Source: Gracilariopsis chorda (Eukaryota > Rhodophyta > Florideophyceae > Gracilariales > Gracilariaceae). Taken from it: a stretch of 64,000 nt of DNA. The DNA lies in contig NBIV01000187.1 in assembly GCA_003194525.1 (NCBI GenBank), forward strand, positions 62,001-126,000, in the 5' to 3' direction. Made by a program: the position numbers and the translations under genes. Shown piece by piece: positions 6,645-34,952 of the stretch. Position 1 is the stretch's first letter. Each line of letters begins with the position of its first letter. The notes beneath the pieces are model-generated. The model did no database searches. It worked only from the letters and a program-made list of their open reading frames with translations, and had not been told where the DNA came from.

Positions 6645-7508
6645 TCACCTGAGGCTGCTGCAGGCCTCCTTGTGCTTTAAGAAAGCATGCCTCCTCTTAT
6701 AAAGCTTTGTGCAACCGTCACATCGGAAAGGACCTTTCTCCCTCTCTACATCCACTCCATGACGACCTGCTACGTGTCGGAACACATTACCCTTGATATT
6801 TGACGTGAAGGAACAGAATATGCATTTGTAGATTTCTTCGTTCTTATTCTTTGGTCTGTCCCGTTTCGAGCCATGTTCTTCCCGCATATGGTGTAGAAGA
6901 CCCCCACTTTTCTTGAAAAACGAAGGGCATAGCTTGCATTGGTAGGTATTCTTACCATAGTGCACATTATAAAGATGCGTTTGCAGCCTTTTCTCACTGG
7001 TGTAAACATGGTTGCATACATCGCAGGGGAATACTTTACCCTGTTGTAACTCTTCCACCCTTTCATGGGTTCGTTTTATATGTCTGTTTAGATTTTGGAG
7101 TGAGCCAAAACCTCTTGAACAGGTCGGGCATATGAGTAAATTGTCCTTCGAGATCTTCTGCACAGCATTTTCTGAAATTAATTCGCCTGCAGATAACTGT
7201 TTTCTCCCGTCTTTATCATTCTCACATGTTTCACTGGTACTTAAGAACTTACCCACATCTAGGGGGTCTATGTGCAAATCAGGAGGCCCCGTGTAATGTA
7301 AAGAAGGCATGCCTTCCTTGAATTCGTCCACTTCTTCGTCGGGAAAGGTACCCTGAATAGGGCCCATCATACTATCAGCAATGTACGTCTCCGGCGGGTA
7401 TCGCTCATTTCGACTAAAGATATCACCTACTCCGTGATCGGAAGAGAAAAGATCGTCTTCAATCTCCCACATGGATGGGACTTGGTCTACGCAAGACAAC
7501 CTTTGCAT
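6645..7508 (-). CDS. C2H2 zinc-finger protein with five fingers
   Basis: From the ATG at 7506-7508 the protein is 287 residues. Residues 1-125 are acidic and unstructured. Residues about 127-287 hold five C2H2 fingers in a row: CPTC...H(3)H, CDVC...H(4)H, CKLC...H(4)H, CIFC...H(4)H, and a last one with CDGC...H and a terminal Cys in place of the second His. The frame stays open upstream to about 7859 with no ATG. That extension has a Cys/His-rich patch (IDCAVCGPLYK) and may be an upstream exon or untranslated sequence. A nucleic-acid-binding role, probably as a transcription regulator in the nucleus, follows from the family; its targets are unknown. Confidence 0.75.
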   Translation of the reverse strand: MQRLSCVDQVPSMWEIEDDLFSSDHGVGDIFSRNERYPPETYIADSMMGPIQGTFPDEEVDEFKEGMPSLHYTGPPDLHIDPLDVGKFLSTSETCENDKDGRKQLSAGELISENAVQKISKDNLLICPTCSRGFGSLQNLNRHIKRTHERVEELQQGKVFPCDVCNHVYTSEKRLQTHLYNVHYGKNTYQCKLCPSFFKKSGGLLHHMREEHGSKRDRPKNKNEEIYKCIFCSFTSNIKGNVFRHVAGRHGVDVEREKGPFRCDGCTKLYKRRHAFLKHKEACSSLR

Positions 7509-7859
7509 TTGTTGTTTCTTAAAATCGTTTTGCTCCGTACTGTACCGCTGGTGCAAAATCAACGACAAACTATATATTACATCGCTTGGCGTGTCGCAGT
7601 ATTTATGCTTGCATACGACAGGAATCGAAGAATGGAAGTCAGCCAATTTTGAAAGATGTATTACTGTATGAAACCGCAACGTATGTTGAATCAGCCTTTT
7701 AGATATTTTGGGAATGATTGTCTTGTAAAGAGGTCCGCAAACGGCACAATCGATATAAATATTATTTGTCGCAACCACACATTTATAGAAGTTCAGGTTT
7801 GGCCCCAAAAACCAAACCAGCAGAGCTTTGAGAATCAGACTTTTAAAAAAAGGGAGCAA

Positions 7860-18005: not shown

Positions 18006-18158
18006 ATGCCTCGTCCCCCGATCGGTCGGGATAGAACTGGGTCTGTACCCGGTCCTTCGGGACTACCCCAGAGCCTCCCACCGCTTCCGCGGAATACTCT
18101 GGATGTCCCGGGAAACGATGAACCAGGTCCAGCTTCCCGGGGTGCTCAGTCTGCCACT
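18006..18158 (+). pseudogene. gypsy-B gag, 5' fragment
   Basis: It starts at ATG 18006 (MPRPPIGRDRTGSVPGPSG) about 140 bases after the LTR and reads a Pro/Gly/Arg-rich leader for 51 codons up to the left end of the DNA transposon. The rest of gag resumes at 28098 on the far side, in a frame that an 8-bp (or 2- or 5-bp) target duplication would keep intact. Confidence 0.75.
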
Positions 18159-18181
18159 CGTCGGTGTTCTCGGAATGCTAG
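18159..18181 (+). repeat. DNA transposon left terminal inverted repeat
   Basis: Inverted match to 28075-28097 with a single mismatch at position 11 (C versus T). The start could be a few bases to the right, because CGT/ACG at the edge may belong to the target. Confidence 0.85.
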
Positions 18182-18387
18182 ATAAGGGTGCTAGATCGCA
18201 AGTTTGTTAGGCAATCACTCAAAAAAACTACGAAAACGCTAGATTCTGCTAGTTCGTGGTGGTTGGCAAGCAAAAAAAAAAAATTTTTCGGAAATCACTC
18301 TTTCATATTTTCTATTGTCATCCGTCCCTAGTACCGCACTTCGCTAGTTTCAAGTTTAGAGCAAGTTCTTTGCTCACTAAACGCTAG
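18177..18387 (+). repeat. Subterminal GCTAG repeats
   Basis: GCTAG occurs at 18177, 18190, 18238, 18248, 18343 and 18383. On the right end the inverse CTAGC occurs at 27965 and 28075. Orientation toward both ends fits transposase binding sites. The role is inferred. Confidence 0.5.
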
Positions 18388-18405
18388 TTAGAGGGCTCGA
18401 AATGG

Positions 18406-18428
18406 CGCTGGCCGCGTAGCGGCCAGCG
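18406..18428. repeat. Subterminal hairpin, left end
   Basis: CGCTGGCCGC, a three-base loop GTA, then GCGGCCAGCG: a perfect 10-bp stem. A matching kind of hairpin lies near the right end at 27868-27901. Confidence 0.8.
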
Positions 18429-18601
18429 GCCCCACCCCCATGCAACCCAAATTAACTTACATATTTCCATCTCGTGGATTTCAAACTTCAAATTGTCAAA
18501 GTTTGGAGCCCAACTGTTCTCTCAGCCTCACTGGGTGGCACCCACACTCTTGAACACCAAACATAAAACCTCCCTTACCATCCTTACCATCCTTCTTCTC
18601 C

Positions 18602-19360
18602 TTATCCTCTCATTCCACGCCTCCTCTTCAACCGACTCTCACCTTCTATTCCTTCGTCGTCCTTCTCCTCCAACCTCTTCCTTACAGCCCCTCGACCGGG
18701 AGTAACAGGAGTGCCTTCCCCGACAACAGCTCTCCCTTCCGCATCACACACCTTCTTCTGCATTTCCTCGATTAGATGCACAGCCCTACCAACCAGTAAA
18801 AGTTGCTTCTCCAACACCAAAACCCGTCTACGCATCTCCTCGTTCTCCTTCCACAGTCTCCTCAGCTCCTCACCCACACACGCCACAACCCCATCGACAT
18901 GCATTTCCGCCCACACCCCAGCCTCCCTTGCCCTCCTACGCAGCTCAGCCACAGCACCCATAGGCACCCCTTCCTCTGAAGAACTCAGCACCATCCCCCC
19001 CATCTCCACCACAACCTCCTCGATACACTCATCCAAACGCTCCTTAAGCCCTCCGCCCACGCTCCTCACCAGTTTCTTCACATCGCGGTAAAACCGACTC
19101 ATTCGCCCCGCCCCACCTCCTCCTCCTCCCCGTCCTCCTCGACTTCCCTCGCCCTCACTTCCCTCCCCCCCATCCCCTCCCATCATCGTCCCAACCCCAA
19201 GCTCCCCGAACCCAACAACGTTCCTTCCCTTGCCCTCTTCACCATCACCCTTCCCTTCCTCCTCCTTCTTCGTCCTTGGAGGCGTCTCGGGGACCTCCCT
19301 CTTCTCCGCTTTATCCAACAACGCCAGTAGCTCCTCATCATTCACGTCTTCGCTAGACAT
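18602..19360 (-). CDS. Transposon cargo: coiled-coil protein with a basic tail (unknown)
   Basis: 252 residues from the ATG at 19358-19360 (MSSEDVNDEELLALLDKAEK). The first third is acidic then Gly/Glu/Lys-rich low complexity, with an unbroken Arg/Gly stretch near residue 75. A helical region with heptad spacing follows (about 90-215, for example LWKENEEMRRRVLVLEKQLL). It ends in an Arg/Lys-rich tail (SRLKRRRGMRG) that could be a nuclear signal. It is transcribed away from the centre of the element together with the membrane-protein gene. No family was recognised. By position it is an accessory protein of the transposon. Oligomerisation and DNA or protein binding in the nucleus are guesses from composition. 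Confidence 0.6.
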   Translation of the reverse strand: MSSEDVNDEELLALLDKAEKREVPETPPRTKKEEEGKGDGEEGKGRNVVGFGELGVGTMMGGDGGEGSEGEGSRGGRGGGGGGAGRMSRFYRDVKKLVRSVGGGLKERLDECIEEVVVEMGGMVLSSSEEGVPMGAVAELRRRAREAGVWAEMHVDGVVACVGEELRRLWKENEEMRRRVLVLEKQLLLVGRAVHLIEEMQKKVCDAEGRAVVGEGTPVTPGRGAVRKRLEEKDDEGIEGESRLKRRRGMRG

Positions 19361-19602
19361 GGCTACTACACGCCCCACCACAACGGCGCTCCCGTTCCTA
19401 ACCCAACCACCAAGCGAGCACTCCCCAGGTACTTATCCAACCGCATTTTTTCACTCGCCCGTTTTCGCGCCATTTCCCACCGAGTCGTGTCCCACCAATA
19501 ATCTGAAACGAAAAATTTAGAACGACATTAGTTTAACACTTCCTTCAGTTTACAACTCTATCACACTAACTTAGGTATGTACAGGTAGAACTACGAACGT
19601 GT

Positions 19603-20373
19603 CTAAAGAAATGGTTCAAAACGAGAACCAACAGGCCTACAGTGCTCTCCTAGATTCGCAACATACCTTCGAAAATGGTACTCCAAGTCCATATCCACAG
19701 CCATACCCAAAAGAAGCAGCACGAAAAAGATAGTATTCTCCACTACAGGCGCGAGTCCCCTTACCTTGTGCAAAGAAGTATCGCTCAGGAACGTGAAAAT
19801 CAAGTAGGTAAACACAACAGGGAACACCCTTCCGATATAGAGCCTCATAGTAGCCACACCATCTCTAAACGCAAGCACCTTATTCAAACCACCGTATACG
19901 GTCCTGCACACATCCAAAATCAGCCCAACACTACCTCTCTGCACATATGGGAGCTCTCTCTCATTGTTAATGCTGTCCCTAGTCACAAAAAACATCGTTA
20001 GCCGTTCAACCACATACGACATACCCCCAAACATGAAACCACCAGTGAAAAATGCAAGAGCACCAGTCCTAAGTTCCATTCCAATCGAAATTGGCGCTTC
20101 CAAGAAGTGATAGCCAACAAAAATACAAACATTCAACGGCAAAAGACCTGCCATCGTGAATCCAAGTAGTCTGTTTCGAATCACAGAAATCCGTGCCATT
20201 CGCTGGCTGTCCCGCAAAGGTACGTATGCCAATGAACCAAAATGCCTTCTATGCAATGCAAACACCATATCGAAGATAAACAAATGCAAAACAGTCTCCA
20301 GAATTACCACAATCAACATCTTCGGAGACATTCGAACATCCCCTACCACATAATGCATCAAAAGCGGTTTCAA
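19603..20373 (-). CDS. Transposon cargo: multi-pass membrane protein (unknown, start unclear)
   Basis: The open frame covers about 256 codons, with a first in-frame ATG at 20358 (MHYVVGDVRM). Four or five hydrophobic segments are visible: around residues 18-38, 70-90, 103-125, 190-208 and 215-232. The frame upstream of 20373 continues as another hydrophobic stretch (AWCAYAFLFSLAIGALYG) to a TAG at 20467-20469 without an ATG. A first exon or a recent stop is therefore likely. The loops are basic and the C-terminus is polar. A membrane protein is an odd passenger for a DNA transposon. I recognise no family, and transporter or envelope-like roles are not supported by any motif. Confidence 0.55.
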   Translation of the reverse strand: MKPLLMHYVVGDVRMSPKMLIVVILETVLHLFIFDMVFALHRRHFGSLAYVPLRDSQRMARISVIRNRLLGFTMAGLLPLNVCIFVGYHFLEAPISIGMELRTGALAFFTGGFMFGGMSYVVERLTMFFVTRDSINNERELPYVQRGSVGLILDVCRTVYGGLNKVLAFRDGVATMRLYIGRVFPVVFTYLIFTFLSDTSLHKVRGLAPVVENTIFFVLLLLGMAVDMDLEYHFRRYVANLGEHCRPVGSRFEPFL

Positions 20374-20769
20374 TACCCCATAAAGAGCACCAATGGCTAA
20401 TGAAAACAGAAACGCATATGCGCACCAAGCCCATGCTTTTCGCTTTTCCTCGCGTAGTCGGCATATCTATGTCAGGCCTTCGCAGCGAAGCGGATTTCCT
20501 GGGACAATGCTTCTTCGTCTTCGTAGAACTCTTATTCCGGCCGAGAACCACGCTGCAATCTTGAAGCGTTCGCGTGATCAAGTTGTCGTGGCACCCAGTC
20601 GCGTAAGATGCTCTCGTGATCACGTCTGCTCGGTTCAGGCGACGTGAGCATCTATACTTTTGAAATACATGGTATTGAAGACGTTTCCTGACAACCATTA
20701 AGTTCATTTAGGCGGCGCTGCAATGCACCTGTAATGATTTTGCATTGGTATTCGAAGTTTGTTTTTGGG

Positions 20770-20855
20770 GGTGGAGGTCCGTGGACCGGAGTGTCGTGGC
20801 GCTTCATCAGGCGCCTGATGAAGCGCCACGACACTCCGGTCCACGGACCTCCACC
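20770..20855. repeat. 86-bp perfect palindrome
   Basis: Two 43-nt arms (20770-20812 and 20813-20855) are exact reverse complements with no loop. The centre is CATCAGGCGCCTGATG. It lies in the gap between the minus-strand membrane-protein gene and the plus-strand methyltransferase-SET gene, that is, at the divergent promoter region of the element. Confidence 0.97.
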
Positions 20856-20865
20856 ACGTGGCGAC

Positions 20866-21002
20866 CAGCAGTTCCGAAAATCAAAAAATTAGTTTAAAAT
20901 TAGTGTCTGGAATGAACGGACATCTGCGGTACGACCTAGTAGGTCATGGGCGGAAGATGCATGGTTCATTTTACACTAATTTTTTGATTTTCTGAACAGC
21001 TG
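20866..21002. repeat. Second inverted repeat, 28-nt arms
   Basis: Arms 20866-20893 and 20975-21002 match at 26 of 28 positions when inverted (core GAAAATCAAAAAATTAGT). The 81-base spacer contains smaller inverted pairs (AATGAAC/GTTCATT, GACCTAGTAGGTC). The right arm overlaps the start of the open frame of the methyltransferase-SET gene. It could be a small MITE, an intron derived from one, or a stem in the 5' leader. Confidence 0.85.
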
Positions 21003-21026
21003 GGTGGGGATAATGAGGTCGAAGAG

Positions 21027-22931
21027 GTGGTGGAGAGTGTGGCTGCTCCAAGAGCTACTACTGGTCTGCAGACAACGACATTGTCTCAGAGACTGACGTA
21101 CAGCGTGAAGGAGACTGGTGTTCAACCTCCACCGTATCCGAAGACTTTAGATCAGTTGATGTCGTACGAGTACTGTGAGAGGCAGATGTCCCGCAGCTTC
21201 CGTCTTCACAACTGCAGTTTCCAAGACCTTGTCGAAGTCGACGACAACAAGTCCGGGGACAGCGAACTATCCATTGAAGGAAGGGTACAGTTCGTGCTTT
21301 CGGATCCCCCATATGGGACTCGTGCGGAGCGTAATCGGGAGAACAGTGGTCATGATGTTCTCACCGAGAAGACCATGGCCCGGGCAGGGAAAAGAATTTC
21401 AAAGTTGCTACGTCCCGGTGGGCATGTTATATTGTTCTGCTCGTGGGATCAGATACAGAAGTGGCGGGAGGTGCTGCGGAGTGTTACGTACACAGATGAC
21501 TCTGGCACAACTCGTTTTTCTTTTGTCGTGGACGAACAACCCCTCCAGTTCGTACGATCCATGGGGAACTCGATGGGTAATCCGGGAAGGCGGAGCTGTC
21601 GGCTGTACCAGACGTCGGAGTATGCCGTACATGCAGTGCGCTCTGGGGTCCCGTATTCCCAACAGCACAGAATGGTGAACTATGAGAACTTTAATTTTAT
21701 CCCTTCACGCTACCCGGCATATCACGCAATCATAGACCAGGTGCCGCCTATGTCTTATGGCGAAACTCTGCTATGGAATGTGACAAACTCGGAGAGAATC
21801 ACTACGAGGAAAAAGGTGCGACCGGAACAGAAGTGTAGGGCATTGCTGAAGGAACTCATTTGCAGGTTTAGTCAGCCAGGAGACCTAGTGGTTGACCTCT
21901 TTGCGGGGACGTTCTCTACAGCGATGGCATGCATGGAACTGCCGAAGCACCGGATATTTGTAGGATGTGAAGACGATAAAGCTTGCTTTGAACACGCAAA
22001 GCATGCTGCTATTGTTCGTTTTGCTTCTATAATCCGGGAGGGAAACACCAATCTTGAGAAGAACCAAGAGCTCAGGAAGATGGCCCATACTGTTGTCATC
22101 GCATTTCCAATGGGCAGATTGAGGCATACCTTGTCATGGAAGGCAGTCAATGGCTTTTCTCCGTACCAGATGCTTCCCCCACACGTCGTCCAGTTCCTGT
22201 CGACGCTGTGGAGAAGTGAAGAGGTAGCCAAATTGGGTAAGAGCAGGACCTTCGATCAATGGCCTAGCGTGCTGCAGGGTAGGATGAATCTGGAGAACAT
22301 GAACTCGCTGCTGGCAATGGAAGCTGTGCATTATGGACTACGAATCAGCAAGTCTACTATTCGCCACGATAACGCTGGTGTTGGAGTGTTTGCAACTCGT
22401 CGAATTGCTGTAGGGGAGGTAGTGTGCTACTTCTATGGGACACTCGTGTATCATGATCTGACGAACCGTAAAGAAGTGCACAAGACCTACGGGGACGGAG
22501 TTATGGGTGTGACGAAGGATCGCTTTCGAAAATATGCGGTGGAGGTGGATGTTCATGGGCATCAGTTCTCTGCACTACCTCATCGGAGAACACTGAACCA
22601 TGGAAAACAAACCAACCCGATTCTTTGGGTTGTTCCAGCTCCGTTTTGTGTTGCAGGGTATATTAACGACCCTAAGTATGTCGAAGGCGATAAGGACTTA
22701 GATGCTACGGTAGATGGCCTTGTGAAAAAGCGTGAGGCTAACGTGCGGATGAAACGTTCACCTGGCCTAGGGCTGAACCGTAGGAAACTAACAGACTACA
22801 GGCTTATCAAGCTGGAAGCCCTTGTTGAAATAGAGGAAGGGGACGAAATCTTTAGTGAATACGGAAATGTCTATGATTGGCATACTCAGACGCATCTGCG
22901 TATAGATGATGGAGCTATTGTAATTGACTAG
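21027..22931 (+). CDS. Transposon cargo: DNA amino-methyltransferase fused to a SET domain
   Basis: Open for 634 codons. The first ATG is at 21159 (codon 45), and the frame is open from about 20988, so an upstream exon is possible. Numbering from codon 1 at 21027, residues about 60-330 form a beta-class SAM-dependent amino-methyltransferase: catalytic motif IV DPPYGT at 93-98, then LLRPGGHVILFCSW (127-140), then the SAM-binding motif DLFAGTFSTA at 290-299. The order IV before I defines the beta class. DPPY favours N6-adenine; N4-cytosine cannot be excluded. Residues about 445-620 form a SET domain: GVGVFATRRIAVGEVV, GYINDPKY, ANVRMKR and IEEGDEIFSEYGN, the last in place of GEELxxDYG. The protein is expected to act in the nucleus on DNA and, through SET, on a lysine. 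All key motifs look intact. Confidence 0.85.
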   Translation: MVESVAAPRATTGLQTTTLSQRLTYSVKETGVQPPPYPKTLDQLMSYEYCERQMSRSFRLHNCSFQDLVEVDDNKSGDSELSIEGRVQFVLSDPPYGTRAERNRENSGHDVLTEKTMARAGKRISKLLRPGGHVILFCSWDQIQKWREVLRSVTYTDDSGTTRFSFVVDEQPLQFVRSMGNSMGNPGRRSCRLYQTSEYAVHAVRSGVPYSQQHRMVNYENFNFIPSRYPAYHAIIDQVPPMSYGETLLWNVTNSERITTRKKVRPEQKCRALLKELICRFSQPGDLVVDLFAGTFSTAMACMELPKHRIFVGCEDDKACFEHAKHAAIVRFASIIREGNTNLEKNQELRKMAHTVVIAFPMGRLRHTLSWKAVNGFSPYQMLPPHVVQFLSTLWRSEEVAKLGKSRTFDQWPSVLQGRMNLENMNSLLAMEAVHYGLRISKSTIRHDNAGVGVFATRRIAVGEVVCYFYGTLVYHDLTNRKEVHKTYGDGVMGVTKDRFRKYAVEVDVHGHQFSALPHRRTLNHGKQTNPILWVVPAPFCVAGYINDPKYVEGDKDLDATVDGLVKKREANVRMKRSPGLGLNRRKLTDYRLIKLEALVEIEEGDEIFSEYGNVYDWHTQTHLRIDDGAIVID

Positions 22932-23085
22932 CTTATATACTAAAGAAACCGAGTTTCTAAACCACATAGCTACTTTAGTGAAAAAGTCCTTGATGGGGGG
23001 GCGATATGTCAGGGGACCCATTCGGTTAACGAGTGGTAGGAACATCAGGGTAATTTTTTAGGGGTTTTCAGAGAGGTGGAACTAA

Positions 23086-24405
23086 TGCCAAAAACCCTTC
23101 GTGGCTTTTCGTGAGTTCTTCCTGCTCGGCACACGTCGTTTTAGGGCCGCGGTGTTTCCCCGCCACAAGCACGCGACATTATCTAACAGCTATGCCCGTG
23201 AAGGGGAAGAAGAGAGGCGCCGGGAGGAAGGCGCGACGAATGCACCGAAAACGCGACGGAGGGGTGTGGAGGAACGAAGTCCGAGTGGCACGAAAGGACC
23301 TCAGGTAGGAGCTACCCGCGTTCCGAGGAGCGGTTTGTCCGGGAGAAAAGGAGGGACAGGGGGTTCAAACCCAAGTGGCGCATCGGATCGCACGATAAAC
23401 GATAATTTGAGGCCGGAGCTCTCCCGAGAGGCGCGGTCTGGCAAGGAACCAAGGCGCGTGCAACGGATGAAGCGGAGATCCAACGAGGAAGCTGCGAAAC
23501 ACGACAGGAGCGGAGTGGAGGGAGATGGTGTTTCCGAGCAGGCACGCGCTGAAGGCTCAGGAGTGAGGAAGGTCTTGTCGTGTGGAAAGGTGGTGCAGGA
23601 GTGTCGTAACTCCAAGCGACGTGGAGCTCCCAGTGGTAATCAAGAGCGCGCGCAAGAAGAGGTGAATGTTTATTTGCCTGAGAGCGAAGGAGAGCGCGAA
23701 GATGAGATTACGAAGGGGAGGTGTACCGAAGGAAGTGCACGTGAGAAGCACGGGCGGTGTTCTAATGTATTTCATGAGAATGAGGCCACGAGAGATCAAG
23801 ATGGAAATGGTGGCACTCCCATCCGATCGAGGAATATGGACATCGTCCCTGACGTAGAGAAAGAAAGCGGACGCAATGCGCTGCGTACACCGGAAGGAAT
23901 GCGGGAGAGAAGGCGAAGAATTTCGGTATCATTTGACCGATCTTTCGAAATGGGATTGGAGGCGGAAGAGAATGTGAATAAGTCACCCCGTGATGAGCAA
24001 GTGGTGAGTACCGATGTTGTGAAGGACCTTGATGATGATGAGATCGGTGTGTTGTCTAGACCTACATTGGTTCAGAAGGTGAATTCGCTAAAGGGAGAAC
24101 TTGGAAGCCTTAAGGAGGACCATACTACTTTAAAGATATCTTTGAAGCTGACACAGGAGGAACTGAAGAGGATGAGGGAAGAAATGATCGAGAAGAACAT
24201 GCTGATTGACAGTTTGAGGGAAGGGATAAAGGTAAGGAGTGCGGAGAGAAGAAGAGCTGAAGGGGGAGACACTGATTTGACGAGGCGTAAAAAGTATGTG
24301 GTTGATGTGGACGAGAGCTTTTATGGATTTGCTAGGGTAGTGTATGATAGGATATTGTATTACGCAAAGTTGGAAGTGTCGGAGCTTTGTTTTACTACGG
24401 ATTGA
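23086..24405 (+). CDS. Transposon cargo: basic coiled-coil protein (unknown)
   Basis: The frame is open from 23086 to the TGA at 24403-24405. The first ATG is only at 23467 (MKRRSNEEAAKHD), so either translation starts there or an upstream exon is missing. The first 300 codons are Arg/Glu/Ser/Gly-rich and disordered. The last 130 include a coiled coil (SLKGELGSLKEDHTTLKISL and LKRMREEMIEKNMLIDSLRE) and an aromatic end (DESFYGFARVVYDRILYYAK). It directly abuts the next frame, which starts with the ATG after the TGA in the same reading frame. It may therefore be the front part of one longer protein cut by a stop. It lies 0.15-0.5 kb after the methyltransferase-SET gene on the same strand. No family was recognised. 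Confidence 0.5.
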   Translation, partial: CQKPFVAFREFFLLGTRRFRAAVFPRHKHATLSNSYAREGEEERRREEGATNAPKTRRRGVEERSPSGTKGPQVGATRVPRSGLSGRKGGTGGSNPSGASDRTINDNLRPELSREARSGKEPRRVQRMKRRSNEEAAKHDRSGVEGDGVSEQARAEGSGVRKVLSCGKVVQECRNSKRRGAPSGNQERAQEEVNVYLPESEGEREDEITKGRCTEGSAREKHGRCSNVFHENEATRDQDGNGGTPIRSRNMDIVPDVEKESGRNALRTPEGMRERRRRISVSFDRSFEMGLEAEENVNKSPRDEQVVSTDVVKDLDDDEIGVLSRPTLVQKVNSLKGELGSLKEDHTTLKISLKLTQEELKRMREEMIEKNMLIDSLREGIKVRSAERRRAEGGDTDLTRRKKYVVDVDESFYGFARVVYDRILYYAKLEVSELCFTTD

Positions 24406-25299
24406 ATGGAGAGGAACTGGACGAACCGGTGTGAGATCTTAGGGAAAGGGACGGAGTCGAGTGTATTCGTAGTGGGAGGGAACGAAATTGTTCCTCGGTG
24501 TCCCTTTGAGATCGTATCGGAGATGAGGGCGTATACACCGAGTTTGCGAGGAGGAAGCAATGAACTTTTGAAGTATTTGATTGGTGTTGAGATTGAAGGG
24601 CATAGATGGGAGTCGATTCGACAAGCGGGTAAGAAGATTCAGTGTATGCAGGACGTAGCTCGGGACAGGTGTTTGAGGCAGCGTATGAAGCAAACGTTGA
24701 GCGATGTGATTGGGGTTCGGAAGCGGGCGGCACGGGAAAAGTTGTTTTCGCTACTTGGGTATGACTTGATAGCAAGACGTGTGAGACCTCAGGAGGGGAC
24801 GGAGCTTGATGTGGAATTGAAGAAGCAGTTAGAGGAAGCGAGAAGCAAGTTAATGGGAAAGGAGGTAGAGAAGAGCCGAATCTTATGTGCATGGAGAATG
24901 AGTGCGATTGACGATCTTACATATTCTGGATTTCAAGTTGCTCGAAGGTTAAGGGACTTTGGTGGGGAGGACATGTACTTTAAGAACGGAGCTGCGGTAG
25001 AAGTGCTGGCAGAGTTTATGGGATATGAGGTGGTACCGGGAGGCGAAGGGAAGACAGATTATGTGGATGGAACTGTGATGCATTTGGCACGCTTGGATGC
25101 TTGGATCGGATGTGTTTTGACTGCGTTGGACACGAATGTGGGCCGTGGAGAAAAACGGCAGTTATTGTTTTCAAAGTTGTTTGGTGAGTATCTCCCGCTT
25201 GCTCTGGAGAACATAATTGGGGTGGCATGGGAGAGAGTGATGGAACGGCACCATGAGGAATTGGAGAATGTTTGGATGTCTTGGAGTAGTGAGATTTGA
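24406..25299 (+). CDS. Transposon cargo: unknown alpha-helical protein, same frame as its upstream neighbour
   Basis: 297 codons from the ATG immediately after the upstream TGA. It is non-repetitive with ordinary globular composition, for example SRILCAWRMSAIDDLTYSGF and HLARLDAWIGCVLTALDTN. I know no family for it. Its last 284 bases overlap, on the opposite strand, the predicted end of the transposase frame. The transposase part in the overlap is low-complexity, so this plus-strand frame is probably the real one there. Read-through of the TGA, or a recent mutation, would join it to the upstream 434-codon frame. Confidence 0.5.
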   Translation: MERNWTNRCEILGKGTESSVFVVGGNEIVPRCPFEIVSEMRAYTPSLRGGSNELLKYLIGVEIEGHRWESIRQAGKKIQCMQDVARDRCLRQRMKQTLSDVIGVRKRAAREKLFSLLGYDLIARRVRPQEGTELDVELKKQLEEARSKLMGKEVEKSRILCAWRMSAIDDLTYSGFQVARRLRDFGGEDMYFKNGAAVEVLAEFMGYEVVPGGEGKTDYVDGTVMHLARLDAWIGCVLTALDTNVGRGEKRQLLFSKLFGEYLPLALENIIGVAWERVMERHHEELENVWMSWSSEI

Positions 25300-27532
25300 A
25301 GAGGACGTGGGCATGTTCGAATATGCCTGCGTCGTTGAAGTGCAGACCTCCGTATCTACGTATGTCGTCGACGATGTGATCGAGGAGATGGAACTTGAGG
25401 GTACCGAGGTGCGAAGAGTGGTAGGGTCCGAGGACGGTGGTGGCTGTGAGTTTGAAGGATCTGATCTGTCGTTCGAGTGATTTGAGAGAGTCTTCGGTCC
25501 ATTCGGAAGTGGAGTTGTATCGCATGGCGTAGAGAACGAGATCTGTGTACTTGGTGAAGACGGAAGTGATTGGGGAGGAGTCGATTTCGTTGCAGCATCT
25601 GTCGAAGAATGCTCCGATGAAGGGGAATACCATGTCGAGTGCGCGGTAATCTTTTGCTTCGAGCATTCCACGGAGTCCTTCTGTGGTGAAGAAGCCGTTA
25701 AGAGCTTGAGCGTTGTCGGAGGTGGAGAAGTCTATGTGGAGTCCAGTTGCAGGGGAATCTTTTTCGATGGCCGCAAGAATGGAGTTGGAGTGTTTGAGGA
25801 TGGAGGTGCGGATGGATTGGAAGGATCTCTTGGATTTGCTGGGACCGACAATGGAGAAGAGGGAATCGGATCGGAGACGTTCGATTGCGGTGGCTTTGAT
25901 GAGTTTAGAGACGCCGAGGTGGAAGTTATGCAGTGGCTCGAAGGCGAAGATGTTGTAAGAAGAGAGAAGCGGAGTGATGTTGAAGATGGGGTATGATTCG
26001 AAGAGAGAAGTGTACTTTGCGAGGGAGAGAGAATGAAGTGCTGTTGCTGCCTCTTCTTTTTTGGTGCGTGCCACTTTTGGTTTCCGGGCGAGTTGCGCTT
26101 CCTCGGATTCGCGGAGAAGGCAGGTGTGCTGTCTGCGATTGGTTCGAGTTTGGAGTTGTGTGCGGAAGGGGATGGGATCTGTATTAAGGAAGAGGTGTTC
26201 CCCAGGGACGGTGCATCTCGGGCAAGGGTGCTGCGGCCGTGTTCCGTGGGAGATGGCGAGGATGTCCTTTGCTTCGGGGATGTCTGCGCAATAGCTGGCG
26301 AGGATGGGGTGGCAGTGGCGGAGGACACCGTGAGCGTCACGGAAGGAGAATCCTGGGAGCGCAGAGGTGAGGAGTGGGTTGAGGATGGTAGAGATGGCGC
26401 GCTGAATGAGGTTCATTTTGGTCTCGCGTGGGATGTTGGAGGATGATTTCGGGACGTAGTCGCTGCCGTCGTCGAAGGCGGTAAACGGGGAGAAGGAGGT
26501 TGGAAGGTATCCGAGGAGTGTGAGATTTTCGGATATACACTTTCGGCGGAGGGCATCGGAGAAGTTGAGAAACGTGACGTGGAGGGGGTAGGAATTGACG
26601 GAGGAGCTTTTCAGGGAGGTTGCGGACTTGTCCGAGTAGAGCTGGACGAGGCCGATGAATGATTCGATACCGGTTTCCTGGGGGGTGTGCCAGACGATGT
26701 CATCGACGGGGGACTGCATAATTTCCTGTTTGATGGCTGGGACGACTTTCTTTCCGAGGGCTGCAGCCATGGGATGTGCGAAAGCCGGGTGACCAGAAGA
26801 CGAAGAAGATGAGGAAGATTGAGATACCGGCTGGAAGAAGGTGTTGTTGAGGTGTGCGAGTGCGAGTTGTTGCTTGAGGACGTCGATGGCACGTTTCTGG
26901 AAGAGGGTTGCGGAGAAGGTGTTGCGCTTGTCTGTGATGGTGGAAGGGATGAAGCCGTTGGAGCTGATGCGTTGCTTGAAGAGGTCCTCTTGCAGTGCGA
27001 GGCACTGCCTGGCGGAGGAGATGGAGGTCTGGAAGGAGGACTTGGAGAAGTCTGGATGGTTGAGGATGGAGATGAGCTCGTCTGCTTTGCGGGTGCTGAC
27101 GGAGGATGCGATGGAGGAGATGTAGAGGACGAGTTGTTCGAGATGAGGGTTGTCGGCGAGAGGGGAAGGGGAACGAGAAGGGGGCGGGAGAAGGGGGTTT
27201 GAGGAGGAGACGGAGCCGATGGCGTGACTTGCGATATGGTAAGCGTCTTGGGTTTGAAGAGAGAGGGAAGCCTGTTGAAGTTCATATGGATCATCATCGG
27301 CGAGGGGGACGTTGTCGGAAGGACGGTGAGAGGGAAGGGGAGGAGAATTGATGGAGAGGTTGGGAACGGATTTTCGCTTCTTGGTCCTGGGAGGGAACTG
27401 AACTGGAGCGGTGGCTGTGGAGGAGGAACGCTTGTTGGCGGTGAGGCGATGGGGGCACCTGCGTTGGTGACTCTGAAGAGAGTATGTGGTGCGGCCGTGG
27501 AAGGAGCAGCGAGGGTAGCAACAGGGGAACAT
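25016..27532 (-). CDS. Plavaka-type (KDZ superfamily) transposase
   Basis: From ATG 27532 the protein is 838 residues; conserved sequence ends near 25260. It begins with a C2H2 zinc finger (MFPCCYPRCSFHGRTTYSLQ, then SHQRRCPH), as in Plavaka transposases. Numbering from this ATG, a first catalytic block sits near residue 300 (LVQLYSDKSATSL, then PLHVTFLNF). The block FRDAHGVLRHCHPILASYCA, then DIPEAK, lies near 397-422 and the CPRCTVPGEHLF motif near 437-448. FAFEPLHNFHLGVSKL follows near 530, and GIFEHAH, with the probable final acidic residue, near 737. These match the RNase H-fold DDE core and Cys motif of the family. No internal stop is seen, so it may be intact. It would cut and insert the element at its terminal repeats. 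Confidence 0.85.
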   Translation of the reverse strand: MFPCCYPRCSFHGRTTYSLQSHQRRCPHRLTANKRSSSTATAPVQFPPRTKKRKSVPNLSINSPPLPSHRPSDNVPLADDDPYELQQASLSLQTQDAYHIASHAIGSVSSSNPLLPPPSRSPSPLADNPHLEQLVLYISSIASSVSTRKADELISILNHPDFSKSSFQTSISSARQCLALQEDLFKQRISSNGFIPSTITDKRNTFSATLFQKRAIDVLKQQLALAHLNNTFFQPVSQSSSSSSSSGHPAFAHPMAAALGKKVVPAIKQEIMQSPVDDIVWHTPQETGIESFIGLVQLYSDKSATSLKSSSVNSYPLHVTFLNFSDALRRKCISENLTLLGYLPTSFSPFTAFDDGSDYVPKSSSNIPRETKMNLIQRAISTILNPLLTSALPGFSFRDAHGVLRHCHPILASYCADIPEAKDILAISHGTRPQHPCPRCTVPGEHLFLNTDPIPFRTQLQTRTNRRQHTCLLRESEEAQLARKPKVARTKKEEAATALHSLSLAKYTSLFESYPIFNITPLLSSYNIFAFEPLHNFHLGVSKLIKATAIERLRSDSLFSIVGPSKSKRSFQSIRTSILKHSNSILAAIEKDSPATGLHIDFSTSDNAQALNGFFTTEGLRGMLEAKDYRALDMVFPFIGAFFDRCCNEIDSSPITSVFTKYTDLVLYAMRYNSTSEWTEDSLKSLERQIRSFKLTATTVLGPYHSSHLGTLKFHLLDHIVDDIRRYGGLHFNDAGIFEHAHVLFKSHYSKTSKHSPIPHGAVPSLSPMPPQLCSPEQAGDTHQTTLKTITAVFLHGPHSCPTQSKHIRSKHPSVPNASQFHPHNLSSLRLPVPPHIP

Positions 27533-28074
27533 GGTGCGGGAAGGAGAGTTGAAGGATTGGAAGGAGAAAGGGGAGCAAAGGGGTTGGAGAGCGAAATGCG
27601 GGAGCGTAATTATTATGGCGCACGGGGATGAAGTGGAGCAGGTGATGCCGAGCGTTTTGCGCTGGCTCGTGGACTGGTGCATGCTATGCAAGGCCGCAGA
27701 CACTGACAACGAGTGAAGGATAGCGAGGGCTATCATGTTTTGTAAACTCTAATGTATTTCCTATATATGTATTTATCTGAGCATCCTATCCTTCTATTTG
27801 AAGGGGCAGTTCCGGTGGTCCGGTCAGATTTTCAATCTCACGTTCACATGTGAAGGTATGTAGTAGTGGAGTCTGGACTCCACTTCGCGGAGTCCGGACT
27901 CGGTTTTTGGTCCGAAATAACTTGGAAATGTGAAGTGCTTTACTAGTTTATACTTTCAAAAAAACTAGCAGTGTTGAATGTGTGAAAATATTTTGATGGA
28001 AATTGATTCATTCAAAAGTGGGTTTTAAGAGTCGATATCCGTCCATTTCAATTCTTTCCCTTTTGATTGTCAAA
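27533..28074. other. Right subterminal region of the DNA transposon
   Basis: About 540 bases of transposase 5' leader and end sequence. It holds the hairpin GGAGTCTGGACTCC...GGAGTCCGGACTC (27868-27901, one mismatch in the stem) and a CTAGC at 27965. The transposase reading frame stays open to 27736 without an earlier convincing ATG. Confidence 0.6.
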
Positions 28075-28097
28075 CTAGCATTCCGAAAACACCGACG
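28075..28097 (-). repeat. DNA transposon right terminal inverted repeat
   Basis: Read on the minus strand it matches 18159-18181 at 22 of 23 positions. Gypsy-B gag resumes directly after it. Confidence 0.85.
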
Positions 28098-29983
28098 CTG
28101 TAGCCCCCCCAGCTCAAGGACGGGATGTTCCCCCACCCGTGGGGGAAACAGCCCCTTCATTGGGGTCCAACGAGCTGTACACCCTCCGGGAGCTAGAAGC
28201 ACAGGTGAAGATCCTGCAATTTTCGCAGATGAATCTCCTCCAGGAGTTAACGTCCTTACATATAAAGTTTGAGAACGCCGACGTACGGGACGTTTCCAAT
28301 GACGTCCGAGTCTTGCGACGTGATGTCAACAAGATGATGGAAACCCGAAAAGTATCGGAAGTCCTCCACGAAGAGGCTGCAGAAAGGATCACTCGCTTAG
28401 CCGCCCGTCTGGAGACGGTGGAACAGACCATCATTATGGATGCTGCCGCCCCGGCGTTGCCGGGAGAGAACGAGGGGTCTCAGAAGTCGCAACGTGCGAA
28501 GGACCGCTGATCGCGGAAGAAGGAGGAAAAGGTGAACTCGGATTTGTCTTGCTCCTCCGGTTCCGATATTAAACCCGTTGGTTCGTCCTCCGACTCGTCA
28601 GACAGTGAGGGAGCCCGTCATCACTCCCGCGCTGCGCGGTCAAAATACACGAAACACACCCAGGGTGCCGCGAGAGGCCGTGGAAAGGGACGGAAGCACC
28701 TTGGTCTCAAAGAGTTAAAACCGACAAATTTATTGTATTGGAAGTTATTGTCGTACCAGTACTATCGGATGGAAGACTCAAGCATGAGTAGAACCCCAAG
28801 GGGGACTGGTCGTGTGAAGGACTGCATTAAGCGCCTTCAGCTGACCCTCCGCCACCAGGGATTCTCCGGGGACGACCCCATCCTCGTACTGGATTTCCTT
28901 GCCCGCTTCGTTGCGGAAGCCGATATTCTCAGAATGAGCGGGGCTCAGGCGTACGTTGCCTTGCCGTATTTTCTTACGGGAATGGCCAAGGATCAGTTCA
29001 ACTCGATTCGTGGATCCTCGAGAGCGTCTGAAGGAGGGGTAACCTGCCGGCCAGAAGCCGAGCAGTATCTCCTGAGGTCCTATGCCACAGGTAACGCCAT
29101 CCAGGTGGCACTACTCGCATTGCGAGATACTAAACAGAAGCCGGATGAGTCCGAAACCGCATTTTCCACGCGGCTGAACAAGGCATTCCACCGCTGTGGG
29201 AACGTATATTCTGCTCAGGAGCGGTGTACCATGTTCGTTGGTGGACTCGACCCTGTCATAAGGACCTTAGCTACCCGACATCGTCAAGATCGTCAGAGAA
29301 TCTCGTATCTCGAGCTCGTACAGTTCGCCCAGGCCGAGGGGGATGCCCTCCGCGCGAGGAAAGGGGCGAAGACACGCTCCCATAAGGTCCGCGATATCGA
29401 AGGAAGGACAACTTCACTACCCCTGAGTAATGGCTACACTCGTAGGGACTACGATAATTTGAACCTCGTACAGAGTGAAGTCCAATCTCTATCGACCACG
29501 GAGCTACCATCTTCCATGGAGACCTTGACAGAAGAAGCAAATCCTTCGCTGTACGTTGGCAACACCCGAAATGTTCCAGCATTGGCGGTGCCCTACTCCA
29601 ATGGAGTCAACCGCCAACGCCCCGGTTGGAAAGACCCCTATCCCCCGCGACAGGATCGCCGACCGCAGATAGCGGAACAACTCCGGACCATCATCTGCCA
29701 CCTTTGCTACCGTCCGGGACATGTGTTCACGAACTGTTTCCTTACGCTCAAGGAAATGGCAAAGGTGATCCTTCATTACGAAACATTGACTCCTGCCGAG
29801 AAGGAGAGAGTCCCCACTACCTCTTCTTACTTGCGGTCTAAGTCGGATTTCCCACGCTCGTCGGTGGCCTCTCAGCCACAGCAGCCGGATAACCGTCCTC
29901 CCCTTCCTCAAGGTGGGAACATACCTGCCCGTGATGGGCCCCAAGCTCCGCAGGAAAGCGGTGAACCTGCTCGGAAAAACTGA
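28098..29983 (+). pseudogene. gypsy-B gag, main part
   Basis: The frame resumes after the DNA transposon and encodes a coiled-coil region (LRELEAQVKILQFSQMNLLQ), then a TGA at 28508-28510. It continues in the same frame to 29983. The second part has a capsid-like core (ALPYFLTGMAKDQFNSIRG, then KQKPDESETAFSTRLNKAFH) and, near its end, a zinc knuckle CHLCYRPGHVFTNC of the CX2CX4HX4C type. The tail is Pro/Gln-rich. It is broken twice, by the transposon and by the TGA. Confidence 0.85.
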
Positions 29984-30179: not shown

Positions 30180-33100
30180 ATGGCGAAACGGAACTACAAA
30201 GTGTATGCCGACCTAGGTGTTTCGAACCAATACATGGTCCGACAACTGTCCGTCCTCGATACGGGTGCTGGTCCAAATTTTTTGGTTCACTCTCTCTTGC
30301 CCCCGCATCTGCGACAGCGGACTCGCTCGGCGCCCGCGATAGATTTCGCCGACGCCAACAATAAACCGCTTTCTATCGTGGGAGCAATCGACCTCATCGT
30401 GAGGTTAGGCGGCTGCGTGGTACAGCTCCAGTTCTTGGTTTGTCGCGAACTGGCAGCGCCGATGATACTCGGATGTGACTTTTGCGACCGATTCCTCGAA
30501 TCTATTCGACCTCGGGATAAAACCGTCGAGTTGATCGATGGAACAACAATACCAATCGTTCGGAAACCACTTAGACGGGCGTTTAAGAAACAGGTACCGT
30601 TACCGGTCGCCCAACAACCGTTGGGGAAAAACGGTGCATCGACGAAGCTACGGATTGCCCGTTCGACGTGTATTCCCCGGCACTCAAAGGCGTGGATCAC
30701 TGTATCATCCCCCAAGCATGGCTTTCAGACGGTTCAGCCGTTGCCCTCACTATGTGAGAAATCCCAATTTGCGTTGGCCAACGGGTTTGTCCTCGTAGAA
30801 CCCAACACCCCTTTCAAGGTGCTAATCGCTAATTTCAGCTCCAACCAACAATGGCTGGTTAAATACCAGGTGATTGGTTCAGTTCTACCACAACCAGTGG
30901 CCATCGTCCCTACCAAGGTCTCTACGGCCGAGGTTCTTGGGATCCTCGAACTTAACGAGGGGGAGGAAAATGGATCCGAATCACATCTGGCCTCCGAGCT
31001 GTAGAAAAAGCCGGATTCACCCGGAAGCGAGCGAAAGGACCTCGTCGAGGAACTCGAGTCTCTGGACTTTGGCCACGTCCCGGAGACACACCACGAGAAG
31101 CTCCGGGATATGCTGCGGGAATTCAACCAATTGTGGGACGGGTCCCTGGGGAAAATTGGCATCACCGAACATCGGATTGACTTACTCCCGGATACCCGGC
31201 CAATCTCACAACACCCTTACAGGGCAGGGCCGACAGCTTGGGAAGAGGAAAAAACCAAGGTTGAGAAGATGCTCCGGGCAGGTTTCACCGAGCCCGCGCA
31301 GTCTCCATGGGCTTCGCAAGTGGTGCTCGTCCCCAAAACAGATGGGTCATGGCGATTTTGCATCGACTACCGCAAGCTAAACGCGGCCACCTTCAAATAA
31401 GTTTACCCCATCCCAAGGATGGACGAATGCATTGACTCCCTCGGGAGTGACAAGGTGTTCACAACCCTAGATGCAAACTGGGGGTATTGGCAGGTCCCTG
31501 TCAGGGAAGAGGACCGTGATAAGACGGCTTTTGTATGCCATCAGGGACTTTACTGGTTTAACCGGATGCCGTTTGGGCTGACAAACGCGCATGCAACATT
31601 TCAACGTGCGGTGGATATCCTGCTAGCCCACTTCAAGTGGAAAACTTGTCTGGTCTACTTGGATGATATTATTGTATTCTCCACTAACTGTGACGAGCAC
31701 CCGGAACAAGTCAAGGATGTGATGAGCGTCCTGCGAGATGCAGGGATAACCCTCAAACTGAAAAAGTGTAAGTTCTTCACCGACACCGTTAAGTACCTCG
31801 GTCATATTATCCACCCAGGGCGGCTGTCGATCGACGAAGTTAGGGTAAAATCCCTCAAAGAGGCGAAGCAACCGACAACTCAAACGGAACTACGATCCTT
31901 CCTCGGTTTGTGCAACGTTTACCGTCGCTTCATCCCGCGTTTTGCGGACATCGCAGCACCCTTGAATGAACTCCTTCGGAAGGGACAACCAGTGGACCTG
32001 GAACCATTCGACGAAACGAAGACCAAGGGATTTGCAGCCCTGGTGGATAGGGTCACGTTGCGACCTATTCTCTCGTTACCGAAACTCGGACTGCCGTACT
32101 CCGTGGACACGGACGCAAGCAACCTCCAGGTTGGATGCGCTCTATTTCAAATCACGGATAGTGGAGAACGTCTACCCATTGGGTTTTGGTTTCGGAGCCT
32201 CAACATGCACGAGAGGAACTACTCAGGGTCTGAGAAAGAGTTCCTCGCCGTCGTGTGGGCGTTACAAACGTTACGCCCCTACCTGATGGGGAATCAATTC
32301 ACCGTACACACCGACCACTTGGCTCTCCGCTGGCTGTTATCCATAGCGGAACCATCTGGCCGCTTGATGTGGTGGAGACTTCGCTTGTCTGAGTTCGACT
32401 TCGAAGTACAGTACAAAAAAGGATCCCTGAATGCCCAGGCTGACGCTCTTTCCCGCCTGCCGACTGCGGCGGAAGCAGAACCAGTCGATGACCTGGACAT
32501 ACCCTGCTTCCTCGTGGAAGAAGGGGAGGACGATACCGAGGAATCGGACGACGTCGACATATTTGACGCCATCTTGGCCGCAGTGTCAGCGGAGCCGCCA
32601 TTGGGTTCTTTTGTGCCAATAACCCCGGAAGAAATGGTCCGCGAACAGCAGACCGCCCCGTTGTGTACGGAGATTCGATCCCGTCTCAACGGGGGTGCCC
32701 AAATACCCTTCGTCACGAACGACCAGGGATACCTCGTGAGGACGGTTGCCGAACGTCCACAGATAGTGGTGCCTCACTTGCTGCAGTCTCAAGTGCTGAG
32801 CCTCGCCCATTACGCGAAGCTGAGCGCCCACCTCGGGGGAAGGAAGTTGTACTACCTCCTGCATAAGGACTTTTACTGGCCCGCCATGGCGGTAGATGCA
32901 TATGCCACGGTACGTGGGTGCTCCGATTGTGCTTGGAACCGCGTCAAGTTGCGGAAATACTCCAAAAAGCTGGTACTCTTCCCTGCTCGGGCTCCCTTGG
33001 AACTCGTCGCGATCGATATCTTCGGAGAATTTATCCGGAAACGCCGGGGAAACCGATACTTGTTGGTCATCACAGACCGCTTCTCAAATTTAGTGCGGAC

Positions 33101-34952
33101 AGTACCTCTTTCGAAGATATCCGCTTCCACGGTTGCACAAGCGTTTGTAACCCATTGGGTATTCACCTATGTGCCACCGATTGATTTGTTATCGGACAAT
33201 GGATCGCAGTTCACTGCGAAGTTCTTCCAGCACGTATGCCGGATCTTGGACATACAGAACTGGTTGACGACCACCGGCCATCCGCAAAGTAATGGACAGG
33301 TGGAGAGGTTCAACCGCACGATGCTCAACGCACTACGGACATTCGTAGTGGACCACCCAAATGATTGGGACCTCTACAAGGACGCTGTGACCTACGCCTA
33401 CAACACGCAGGTGCACCGAGTTACCGGGTTCTCACCGTTTGACCTCGTGCTGTCGAGGATTCCACCATCGGGGGCCATTGAGCCCCAAGCTACTTTGGAC
33501 AAGTTCCCGTCGCCACGGTTCCACCGTGACGCTTGGCGTGCATGGCTGAAGACCATTCTATCCGTTGTACAACGGAATTTTTCAAAGGCTCAAGCCGCCT
33601 ACAAGCGGGATTTCGATGCCCGGGTCAAACGGTTCGCTCCCACCGTACGGGAGAACGACTACGTGTTCCTCCGAAAAGAGTACTATAATCCCAAGAAGGA
33701 GAAGCGACACAAGCTCTCTCTAATCGCGGATGGTCCCTACCGGGTCGTGTCAGCCACCGATACAACGGTCGTCTTTGATATCAAGGGACAGCACGAACGA
33801 ATCTCCCGCGATCGCGTAGCTCGCGCTCTGCAGATTAACTCGGCAGCGGCTACCTCGCCAGTTGCCCAAGAGGGACCCGAACTATCGGCGGAAGCTACCG
33901 CCCATGAGAAAGAACTCCACCACTTACCGGGCCTACCTCATCCCCAACGTGGACTCGCAGATCTCTCAATGGAGCCCGAGAAGCAACTGAACACGTTAAA
34001 CAACGCCGCGCATATGCGTAGACGTACCGAACCCTTCCCAGAGATAATCAATCGCACCTCCGTCGCTCAACCTAAGGAAGGGGAGGGCATTGGGAGTTCT
34101 TGTGTACCCACAATACCCGCGCTGCAGCACGGAAGTGACACTGAGGCCGCACCAGCGGACGAATGCCCACCGGCCGCGGAAACACCGCCGCAGCAGCGGA
34201 ACGGGAATGATGGCTCGCGCAACGCCGCAAGAGCGGAAGATCGAACGCCCGTGCAGGCTAAGCGCACGGTTACGGCAGACCCAGGCCTGGGAGATCAAGA
34301 GCAGCCCCGATACACCGCCACCACGGTGAGCGGTAGCAGCGATGCCGGTAAGCAGGAGCACGCCACTGTAAGTGGACAGTTACCACCAACGGTGGGGTTG
34401 ACCAAGGCACGACAAACGGCGCCCGCCGTGGACATGCCGCCTCCACGGAAGAACGGCACAACACCAAGTGCACATGTAACCGTCGCAGAACGGCCGCCAC
34501 CGAAAAATCAAAAACTCGGAAATAATGGAGTAAGCCACGGCGAGCCGGCCGTTGACACGGGAAAGCAAACGCTTGGGCCCGATCCGCCTCCGCGGCACGT
34601 GACACTGCACCGCGCGCTTAGCGAAGAAGGCACGCCGCGAGGACTTGCGGAGATAGCGGAACTCAGCCCTCAGTATGGGACGCGTCCAGAGGATAAGATC
34701 CCGGTAAGGTTGAACGCTTTCAGCGTATTGGTCCAAGAATTGGAGTATCCCGAACAGTCGGTCGCCATAAGCTACTTCTTCGTATGTACGGTATCGCGAC
34801 ACATCAAAACCATAAGAGGGAGAAACCGGAAGCTTATTCGGAGCGCGGAAGTGACGCGCATACCCAAGTCGGGCCATCTCACTCCGAGCGCACGCCTTGT
34901 TCTCGGTATATTCCTACCAGAGGTCGGTGGACGGTACCGCGATACGAGTTAA
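30180..34952 (+). pseudogene. gypsy-B pol: protease, RT, RNase H, integrase, with two in-frame stops
   Basis: One frame runs from 30180 to 34952, interrupted by TAG at 31002-31004 and TAA at 31398-31400, both single-base-type stops with no frame change. The domains in order are: aspartic protease (VLDTGAGPNFLV); reverse transcriptase (FTTLDANWGYWQV, RMPFGLTNAHATF, LVYLDDIIVFS); RNase H (YSVDTDASN, HTDHLALRWL, ADALSRLP); integrase with a zinc module (HLGGRKLYYLLHKDFYWP, then CSDC) and D-D-E core (AIDIFGEF, LLSDNGSQFTAKF, NGQVERFNRTM). A C-terminal domain follows (KLSLIADGPYRVV). About 370 further residues are Pro/Gly-rich without a clear chromodomain. Pol lies in another frame than gag, about 200 bases downstream of its stop. 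Confidence 0.92.

Follow-up and report, generated by a model that had tools for sequence, protein, structure and literature searches.

In Kojima 2025 (PMC12730594), Plavaka transposons (PlavakaA and PlavakaB) belong to the CMCT clade together with EnSpm, some of them carrying TET/JBP genes, and the author's own earlier placement of Plavaka near Zisupton/Kyakuja/Dileera (KDZ) is to be corrected. The window analyzed here, the whole 64,000-nucleotide stretch of Gracilariopsis chorda DNA (C187:62001-126000, in an assembly of 91.3 Mb and 1081 contigs), contains at positions 18159-28097 a DNA transposon copy of the Plavaka type (related to CACTA/EnSpm), 9.9 kb long and defective. Its cargo includes a gene for a DNA amino-methyltransferase fused to a SET domain (MT-SET). 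The ends of this copy are as follows.

18159..18181, plus strand: left terminal inverted repeat, CGTCGGTGTTCTCGGAATGCTAG
28075..28097, minus strand: right terminal inverted repeat, complementary to the left repeat at 22 of 23 positions
18157..18158 (left) and 28098-28099 (right): target-site duplication CT, supported by empty sites
18159..18458, plus strand: left subterminal region, with 6 GCTAG/CTAGC motifs vs 0.5 expected in shuffles

The 23-bp terminal inverted repeats reported by the initial annotation were confirmed, and so were other copies sharing them. Queries of 301 bases across each end gave 40 scored places on the left (best 40 of 135 candidates) and 40 on the right (best 40 of 119 candidates), all at 98-100% identity. 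The window aside, matches to both queries stopped at most 8 bases from the terminal repeats. All six complete young copies read at both ends were flanked by 2-bp target duplications, namely CT, CG, AT, AC, TA and AT in the window, C144, C15, C23, C27 and C53, respectively. When the flanks of the window copy were joined by one CT (312 bases), they matched C328 and C87 end to end at 91%, with the element absent. For the C23 copy, the joined flanks had a full-length match in C51 at 100% identity and matched 39 further places at 99% (best 40 of 151 candidates). The young insertions are recent, since most long segments common to these copies show 99-100% identity, with 97.6-98.9% in a few short ones. 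That the locus is a single-copy gene cluster, or an assembly artefact with chance inverted repeats, has practically no chance of being true, being refuted by dozens of places with the same ends, by the 2-bp duplications and by the empty sites.

The initial annotation had placed the element in KDZ and expected empty sites with 8-bp duplications. The empty sites were found, whereas the duplications were of 2 bp at 6 of 6 sites, within the 2 or 3 bp typical of Plavaka, and not of 8 bp as in Zisupton, and KDZ membership was rejected. The element is Plavaka-type (CACTA/EnSpm-like) because of these 2-bp duplications and empty sites, and the published grouping of Plavaka with EnSpm also speaks against KDZ. 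The transposase matched the Plavaka profile (PF18759) at E 4e-21, with 76.6 bits vs a Pfam cut-off of 26.3, and none of 14 named control genomes matched this profile. At E limits of 1 and 5, the transposase matched no Pfam model other than Plavaka; Pfam presumably includes a KDZ model. Of the Plavaka transposase with zinc finger in the initial annotation, the transposase stood, and the zinc finger was seen by eye only and not reported by Pfam. Residues D486, C506, C509, H784, H788 and E808 were invariant in 21 rows and D370 nearly so, which fits the Plavaka pattern D, D, C(2)C, H(3-4)H, E, with roles assigned against the part of PMC12730594 that describes it. The termini, CGTC[G/T]GTG, are unlike TGT..ACA (PlavakaA) or CATCA..TGATG (PlavakaB), and the element is therefore neither of the two. 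Fungal Plavaka transposases matched this transposase only at E ~1e-4.

MT-SET matched N6_N4_Mtase in Pfam at E 1.4e-18 and SET at E 6e-5 (23.3 bits vs a cut-off of 22.4), and SET was found in 23 of 27 aligned proteins. The methyltransferase part has the features of a beta-class DNA amino-methyltransferase, with DPPY before the S-adenosylmethionine (AdoMet) motif, and its modelled fold is of the CcrM type. The list of solved structures for MT-SET was filled by the methyltransferase part and is uninformative for SET or the N-terminal part. DPPY and the best folds of the model suggest specificity for adenine rather than cytosine. The solved sequences nearest to SET were KMT2C, KMT2D and KMT5A/SETD8 (E 5e-5 to 9e-3), and neither SUV39 nor SETDB1 was among the SET-type matches up to E 0.01. 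KMT2-type enzymes have a role at histone H3 lysine 4 (H3K4). In the SET alignment, Asn973 was present in 24 of 27 proteins, followed by Asp and not His in 23, and Tyr1038 was present in 23. Canonical SET domains have an NHS-type motif and a catalytic Tyr motif.

The ratio of nonsynonymous to synonymous substitution (dN/dS) between MT-SET of C53 and that of five older copies (L041, L042, L043, L045 and L046) was 0.159-0.180 at dS 1.11-1.16, by a Nei-Gojobori count in which dS is near saturation and stops in older copies raise the ratio if anything. The values were similar across the N-terminal, methyltransferase and SET parts. As judged from these substitutions, MT-SET is under purifying selection; taken with its convergent pairing with Plavaka places, also in diverged families, this marks it as the element's own gene, not accidental cargo. 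A dN/dS of ~0.17 between subfamilies strains the reading of MT-SET as a captured host gene, a passenger without benefit to the element. Such a passenger would fit the several young copies in which MT-SET is absent or shortened, and the presence of MT-SET near only 18 of 33 young transposase rows, the others including deleted copies and contig ends. The only named relative of MT-SET, P0007 of Chondrus crispus, is annotated as 'adenine specific DNA methyltransferase'; it shares the MT-SET domain order and is 36% identical across 88% of the searched part. A query with it gave no match above the element copies (best 46 of 346 candidates), so that no closer host ortholog appeared. With this result, the convergent arrangement of MT-SET and transposase at 70 places and the MT-SET of a distant family (C12) at 32% identity, we regard the passenger as very unlikely. 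A viral origin was tried and rejected: 16 viral-contig loci matched the MT-SET profile at 22-49% identity, all to residues 504-750 (methyltransferase) and none to SET, and the transposase profile had no match in the viral contigs.

The association of MT-SET with Plavaka was examined across the genome. The Pfam scan gave 150 N6_N4_Mtase places (best 150 of 175 candidates) and 114 Plavaka places (best 123 of 133 candidates). A Plavaka place lay at most 8 kb from 71 of the 150 methyltransferase places; 70 of these pairs were convergent, covering 70 of the 114 Plavaka places. Together with the Pfam matches to both domains, this upheld the proposal of the initial annotation that a mobile element owns the amino-methyltransferase-SET gene. 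About 3 pairs were expected under independence (P 4e-70), a value that only excludes chance because many places are copies of one family. Independent support for the association is given by different families, down to 32-49% identity.

The MT-SET search gave 72 rows, 28 at 97-100% and 44 at 54-74% identity (best 70 of 365 candidates scored). In C46, a copy of the older group, the right terminal repeat was found with 2 mismatches, and the order was membrane protein (73%), gene5 (64% and 53%, in two pieces), MT-SET and transposase (75%). ORFA was not seen in C46, the stretch read not reaching its left end; in older copies, ORFB was 32-51% identical. The C12 family spans 13,450 bp between CGTCTGTGTTCTCGG-type ends, with identities of 38% for ORFA, 33% for the membrane protein, 32% for MT-SET and 49% for the transposase; gene5 and ORFB were undetected in the 16.8 kb read. 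Common to the young and C12 families are the transposase, MT-SET, ORFA and the membrane protein; gene5 and ORFB were encountered in the young and older groups only. In C12:166000-182800 (L074/L075), ORFA and the membrane-protein gene lie in the opposite orientation to those of the young family. At C3:361971, C228:8556 and C330:6997, methyltransferase-Plavaka pairs have a short gap of 2.3-2.55 kb; these are perhaps families without ORFB, like C12.

As a whole explanation, to which we give a probability of about 0.5, we propose that the element combines a cut-and-paste transposase with an MT-SET that would mark the element's own chromatin to oppose silencing. The transposase would cut and paste the element via its ends and the subterminal GCTAG repeats. 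MT-SET would write N6-methyladenine (6mA) on the DNA of the element and would methylate histones on the element's own chromatin, and these marks may keep its genes or ends accessible, opposing host silencing. A role in accessibility is judged likeliest because 6mA marks expressed genes in several eukaryotes, according to the available part of PMC12695648, and because SET is nearest to KMT2-type enzymes.

Several results weigh against this proposal. C15 and C23 are young copies that multiplied without MT-SET, so that MT-SET is not needed in cis for mobility. Such ends without MT-SET had been named by the initial annotation as contrary evidence; they exist, yet they are internal deletions of the same element. 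Cargo at fixed loci away from a transposase had been named likewise, and here no match of the Chondrus query exceeded the element copies among the best 46 of 346 candidates, while 26 of 90 near-full-length methyltransferase places had neither a Plavaka nor a gene5 partner (46 had a convergent Plavaka and 18 more had gene5 divergently upstream). Of the 26, two places on C32 and one on C34 are young copies bounded by both ends; the other 23 may be due to deletion or decay, to contig ends, or to other families or host genes. Among the copies read, no single one had all six genes intact. The C12 copy shows no target duplication, and its MT-SET is damaged, with a DAPY motif and SET cut short. In MT-SET the SET motif is IND in place of the usual NHS. 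The N6_N4_Mtase-type domain has repeatedly evolved 6mA or N4-methylcytosine (4mC) specificity, and the nearest eukaryotic precedent, bdelloid 4mC, is a silencing mark, both as given in the accessible text of PMC8885841.

Since the bdelloid precedent silences, the main rival is self-restraint: repressive marks written by MT-SET would silence the element outside a permissive stage, or silence rival copies, with low damage to the host. Bdelloid N4CMT is proposed to write repressive marks with SETDB1. The SET matches of the red algal protein are to KMT2C, KMT2D and KMT5A/SETD8 and none to SUV39 or SETDB1, and its methyltransferase motif is DPPY, not SPPY. We consider self-restraint unlikely, though the most serious of the competing explanations, and keep opposition to silencing as the preferred reading.

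The subterminal repeats bear on a further alternative. GCTAG/CTAGC occurred 6, 6, 8 and 4 times within 300 bp of 4 of 5 ends, from three families, vs 0.4-0.5 in shuffles that preserve base content only, the motif having been chosen after inspecting the ends. The right end of the window copy had 2 motifs, which is not significant (P 0.097). Transposase sites of CACTA elements are similar subterminal repeats. Dam methylation times bacterial IS10/Tn10, and a methylated adenine in the palindromic CTAG of the GCTAG repeats could in the same way tie transposase binding to replication through hemimethylation. The enrichment at 4 of 5 ends and the predicted CcrM-type fold are in favor of this timing role. 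We find it a rather poor prospect, less probable than self-restraint, given the post hoc choice of the motif, the simple shuffles and the right end of the window, and GCTAG may be merely the transposase site.

From overlapping copies, we infer a parent element of ~18.3 kb with six genes; by arithmetic, the C204 sequence to the left of the MT-SET start and the C53 sequence to its right add up to 18,276 bp. The order from the left end is ORFA (-), membrane protein (-), gene5 (-), MT-SET (+), ORFB (+) and transposase (-), with gene5 and MT-SET pointing away from each other on either side of an 86-bp palindrome and a second hairpin. C53 (11,851 bp) has open ORFA, MT-SET (1060 amino acids, ATG start), ORFB and transposase (1156 amino acids) and lacks the two genes kept in C204, those of the membrane protein and gene5; C53 as the full-length element was abandoned once gene5 emerged. 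The membrane protein of C204 has 417 codons and five hydrophobic segments in a simple scan, and the MT-SET frame of C204 is broken after 320 amino acids. The model of ORFB was poor (pLDDT 31); ORFB had no Pfam match and two public relatives among the best 7993 candidates scored. The window copy is a wreck: five of its six genes were broken by three deletions, one frame shift and one stop codon. Its features are as follows.

18602..19360, minus strand: ORFA, coiled-coil-like by eye, 252 amino acids from the first ATG
19603..20430, minus strand: 3' part of the membrane protein gene, amino acids 143-417 of 417 codons, N-terminus deleted
20420..20707, minus strand: first 92-96 codons of gene5, remainder deleted (1417 amino acids in C204)
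20429..20432: joint of a 5.36-kb deletion (reference C204), fusing the membrane-protein gene to gene5
20770..20855: perfect 86-bp palindrome between gene5 and MT-SET
20865-20900 and 20968-21003: arms of the second hairpin, beside the palindrome
21009..21010: joint of a 1.66-kb deletion (reference C53), with the MT-SET start and ~420 residues lost
21006..22931, plus strand: MT-SET, residues 420-1060 of 1060, with N6_N4_Mtase (DPPY) and SET
23054..25269, plus strand: ORFB, codons 1-739 of an 821-codon open frame
25270: joint of a 1.31-kb deletion (reference C53), removing the ends of transposase and ORFB
25270..27736, minus strand: Plavaka transposase, C-terminus gone, ~830 of 1156 residues (834 of 1160 codons)

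ORFA is the sole gene apparently intact in this copy. ORFB is interrupted by a frame shift near 23228 and by a TGA at 24403, and its C-terminus is missing; the frames 23101-24405 and 24406-25299 are one gene split by this stop. The frames 19603-20373 and 20249-20707 represent the membrane protein's C-terminal end and the gene5 start (92-96 residues), and the frame below 25270 is not transposase. Cargo between the ends was borne out, while the five frames listed as the gene set in the initial annotation are mostly remnants of a broken copy. One deletion of this copy terminates at the second hairpin. In C53, palindrome sequence flanks the hairpin on both sides, one side being shortened, and C27 has no palindrome.

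The 1417-residue gene5 product gave no usable match in Pfam, NCBIfam, PHROGs, PDB, phages or viral contigs. By eye, its C-terminus has H1223-x-D1225, H1298 73 residues on and R1314 16 further, a dioxygenase-like HxD..H..R arrangement of the kind known from Fe(II)/2-oxoglutarate dioxygenases, and these four residues are also present in the single older gene5 copy read. The spacing of 16 residues from H to R also resembles JBP1 and AlkB. The C-terminal part had no Pfam match at E up to 10, no PDB match and none in viral contigs, where the single-sequence query reaches close relatives only. The middle contains a ParB-like VVLVDGYHR, seen by eye only, and gene5 had no ParB match in Pfam. Weak matches to domains of unknown function (DUF; E 0.1-0.2) and NdmD (E 1.1), and a match of SU10_MCP to a piece of the older gene5 copy (E 0.006, below cut-off), were taken as chance. 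Compared with C46, gene5 as a whole had a dN/dS of 0.198 (ParB-like stretch 0.126, C-terminal part 0.132, a linker 0.33); the ratio was 0.31 over 270 codons of the membrane protein and 0.44 over only 52 codons of the transposase N-terminus. On sequence grounds we tentatively suggest, with less confidence than for the marking role of MT-SET, that the element may carry a private epigenetic kit: the fused DNA/histone methyltransferase as writer and gene5 as a putative ParB-like binder and dioxygenase eraser that would remove or oxidize the mark, divergent from a palindrome-rich region and together since before the split of young and older groups. If the dioxygenase reading is true, writer and eraser would be on one element. 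The fungal CcTET, which is close to Kyakuja-borne enzymes, acts on 6mA, as the available part of PMC12730594 reports.

The transposon probably interrupts a Ty3-like retroelement, of which related copies without the insertion are present, because it sits upstream of a gag-like frame (28532-29983, by eye, without Pfam match) and a Ty3-like pol frame (31419-34952) with reverse transcriptase, RNase H and integrase domains. Within the element, the frames other than those matching Plavaka, N6_N4_Mtase and SET had no significant Pfam match. Elsewhere in the window are a C2H2 zinc-finger protein (6645-7859, minus strand), an XendoU endoribonuclease-like gene (41216-42505, plus strand) and a protein with 13 ephrin-receptor-like cysteine repeats (56224-58071, minus strand).

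The gene set was undescribed in the full-text literature searched, with subscription papers and Repbase outside its coverage. TET in Plavaka, SET in Harbinger/MuDR and C5 methyltransferases in retrotransposons are already in print, and this combination was not found in that literature. The element would be a DNA transposon in which an amino-methyltransferase of bacterial type is joined to a methyltransferase of histone type, a fusion retained across families at 32-49% identity, and a direct system for asking whether 6mA serves against or for silencing in eukaryotes. It also raises the question whether red-algal MT-SETs, such as that of Chondrus, are transposon genes.

With Plavaka, as far as it is described in PMC12730594, the element shares the Plavaka domain, C(2)C and H(3)H between the second D and the last E, 2-bp duplications and an epigenetic enzyme as cargo; it differs in its termini, CGTCGGTG..CACCGACG, and in a cargo of MT-SET and four other genes. 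Like KDZ elements with TET/JBP, it is a DNA transposon with DNA-modification cargo. The Amoebidium 'Plavaka giant repeats' (PMC11244446) are also large gene-bearing repeats with a Plavaka transposase, and many of their genes match dinoflagellates or red algae; compared by description only, they form tandem clusters up to 50 kb with many tyrosine recombinases, and MT-SET is unmentioned in the text available. The Phytophthora HarbingerS and MuDR families are likewise DNA transposons with a SET gene but belong to other transposase superfamilies, and the introduction of PMC12730594 mentions no fusion to a DNA amino-methyltransferase. The retrotransposons of dinoflagellates and charophytes (PMC5890265) are mobile elements encoding a DNA methyltransferase too, in their case a host-derived C5-cytosine enzyme, with SET unmentioned in the portion available. 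Bdelloid N4CMT, as presented in the part of PMC8885841 at hand, is a host gene with a chromodomain, SPPY and 4mC, whereas the enzyme described here is transposon-borne, fused to SET and bears DPPY.

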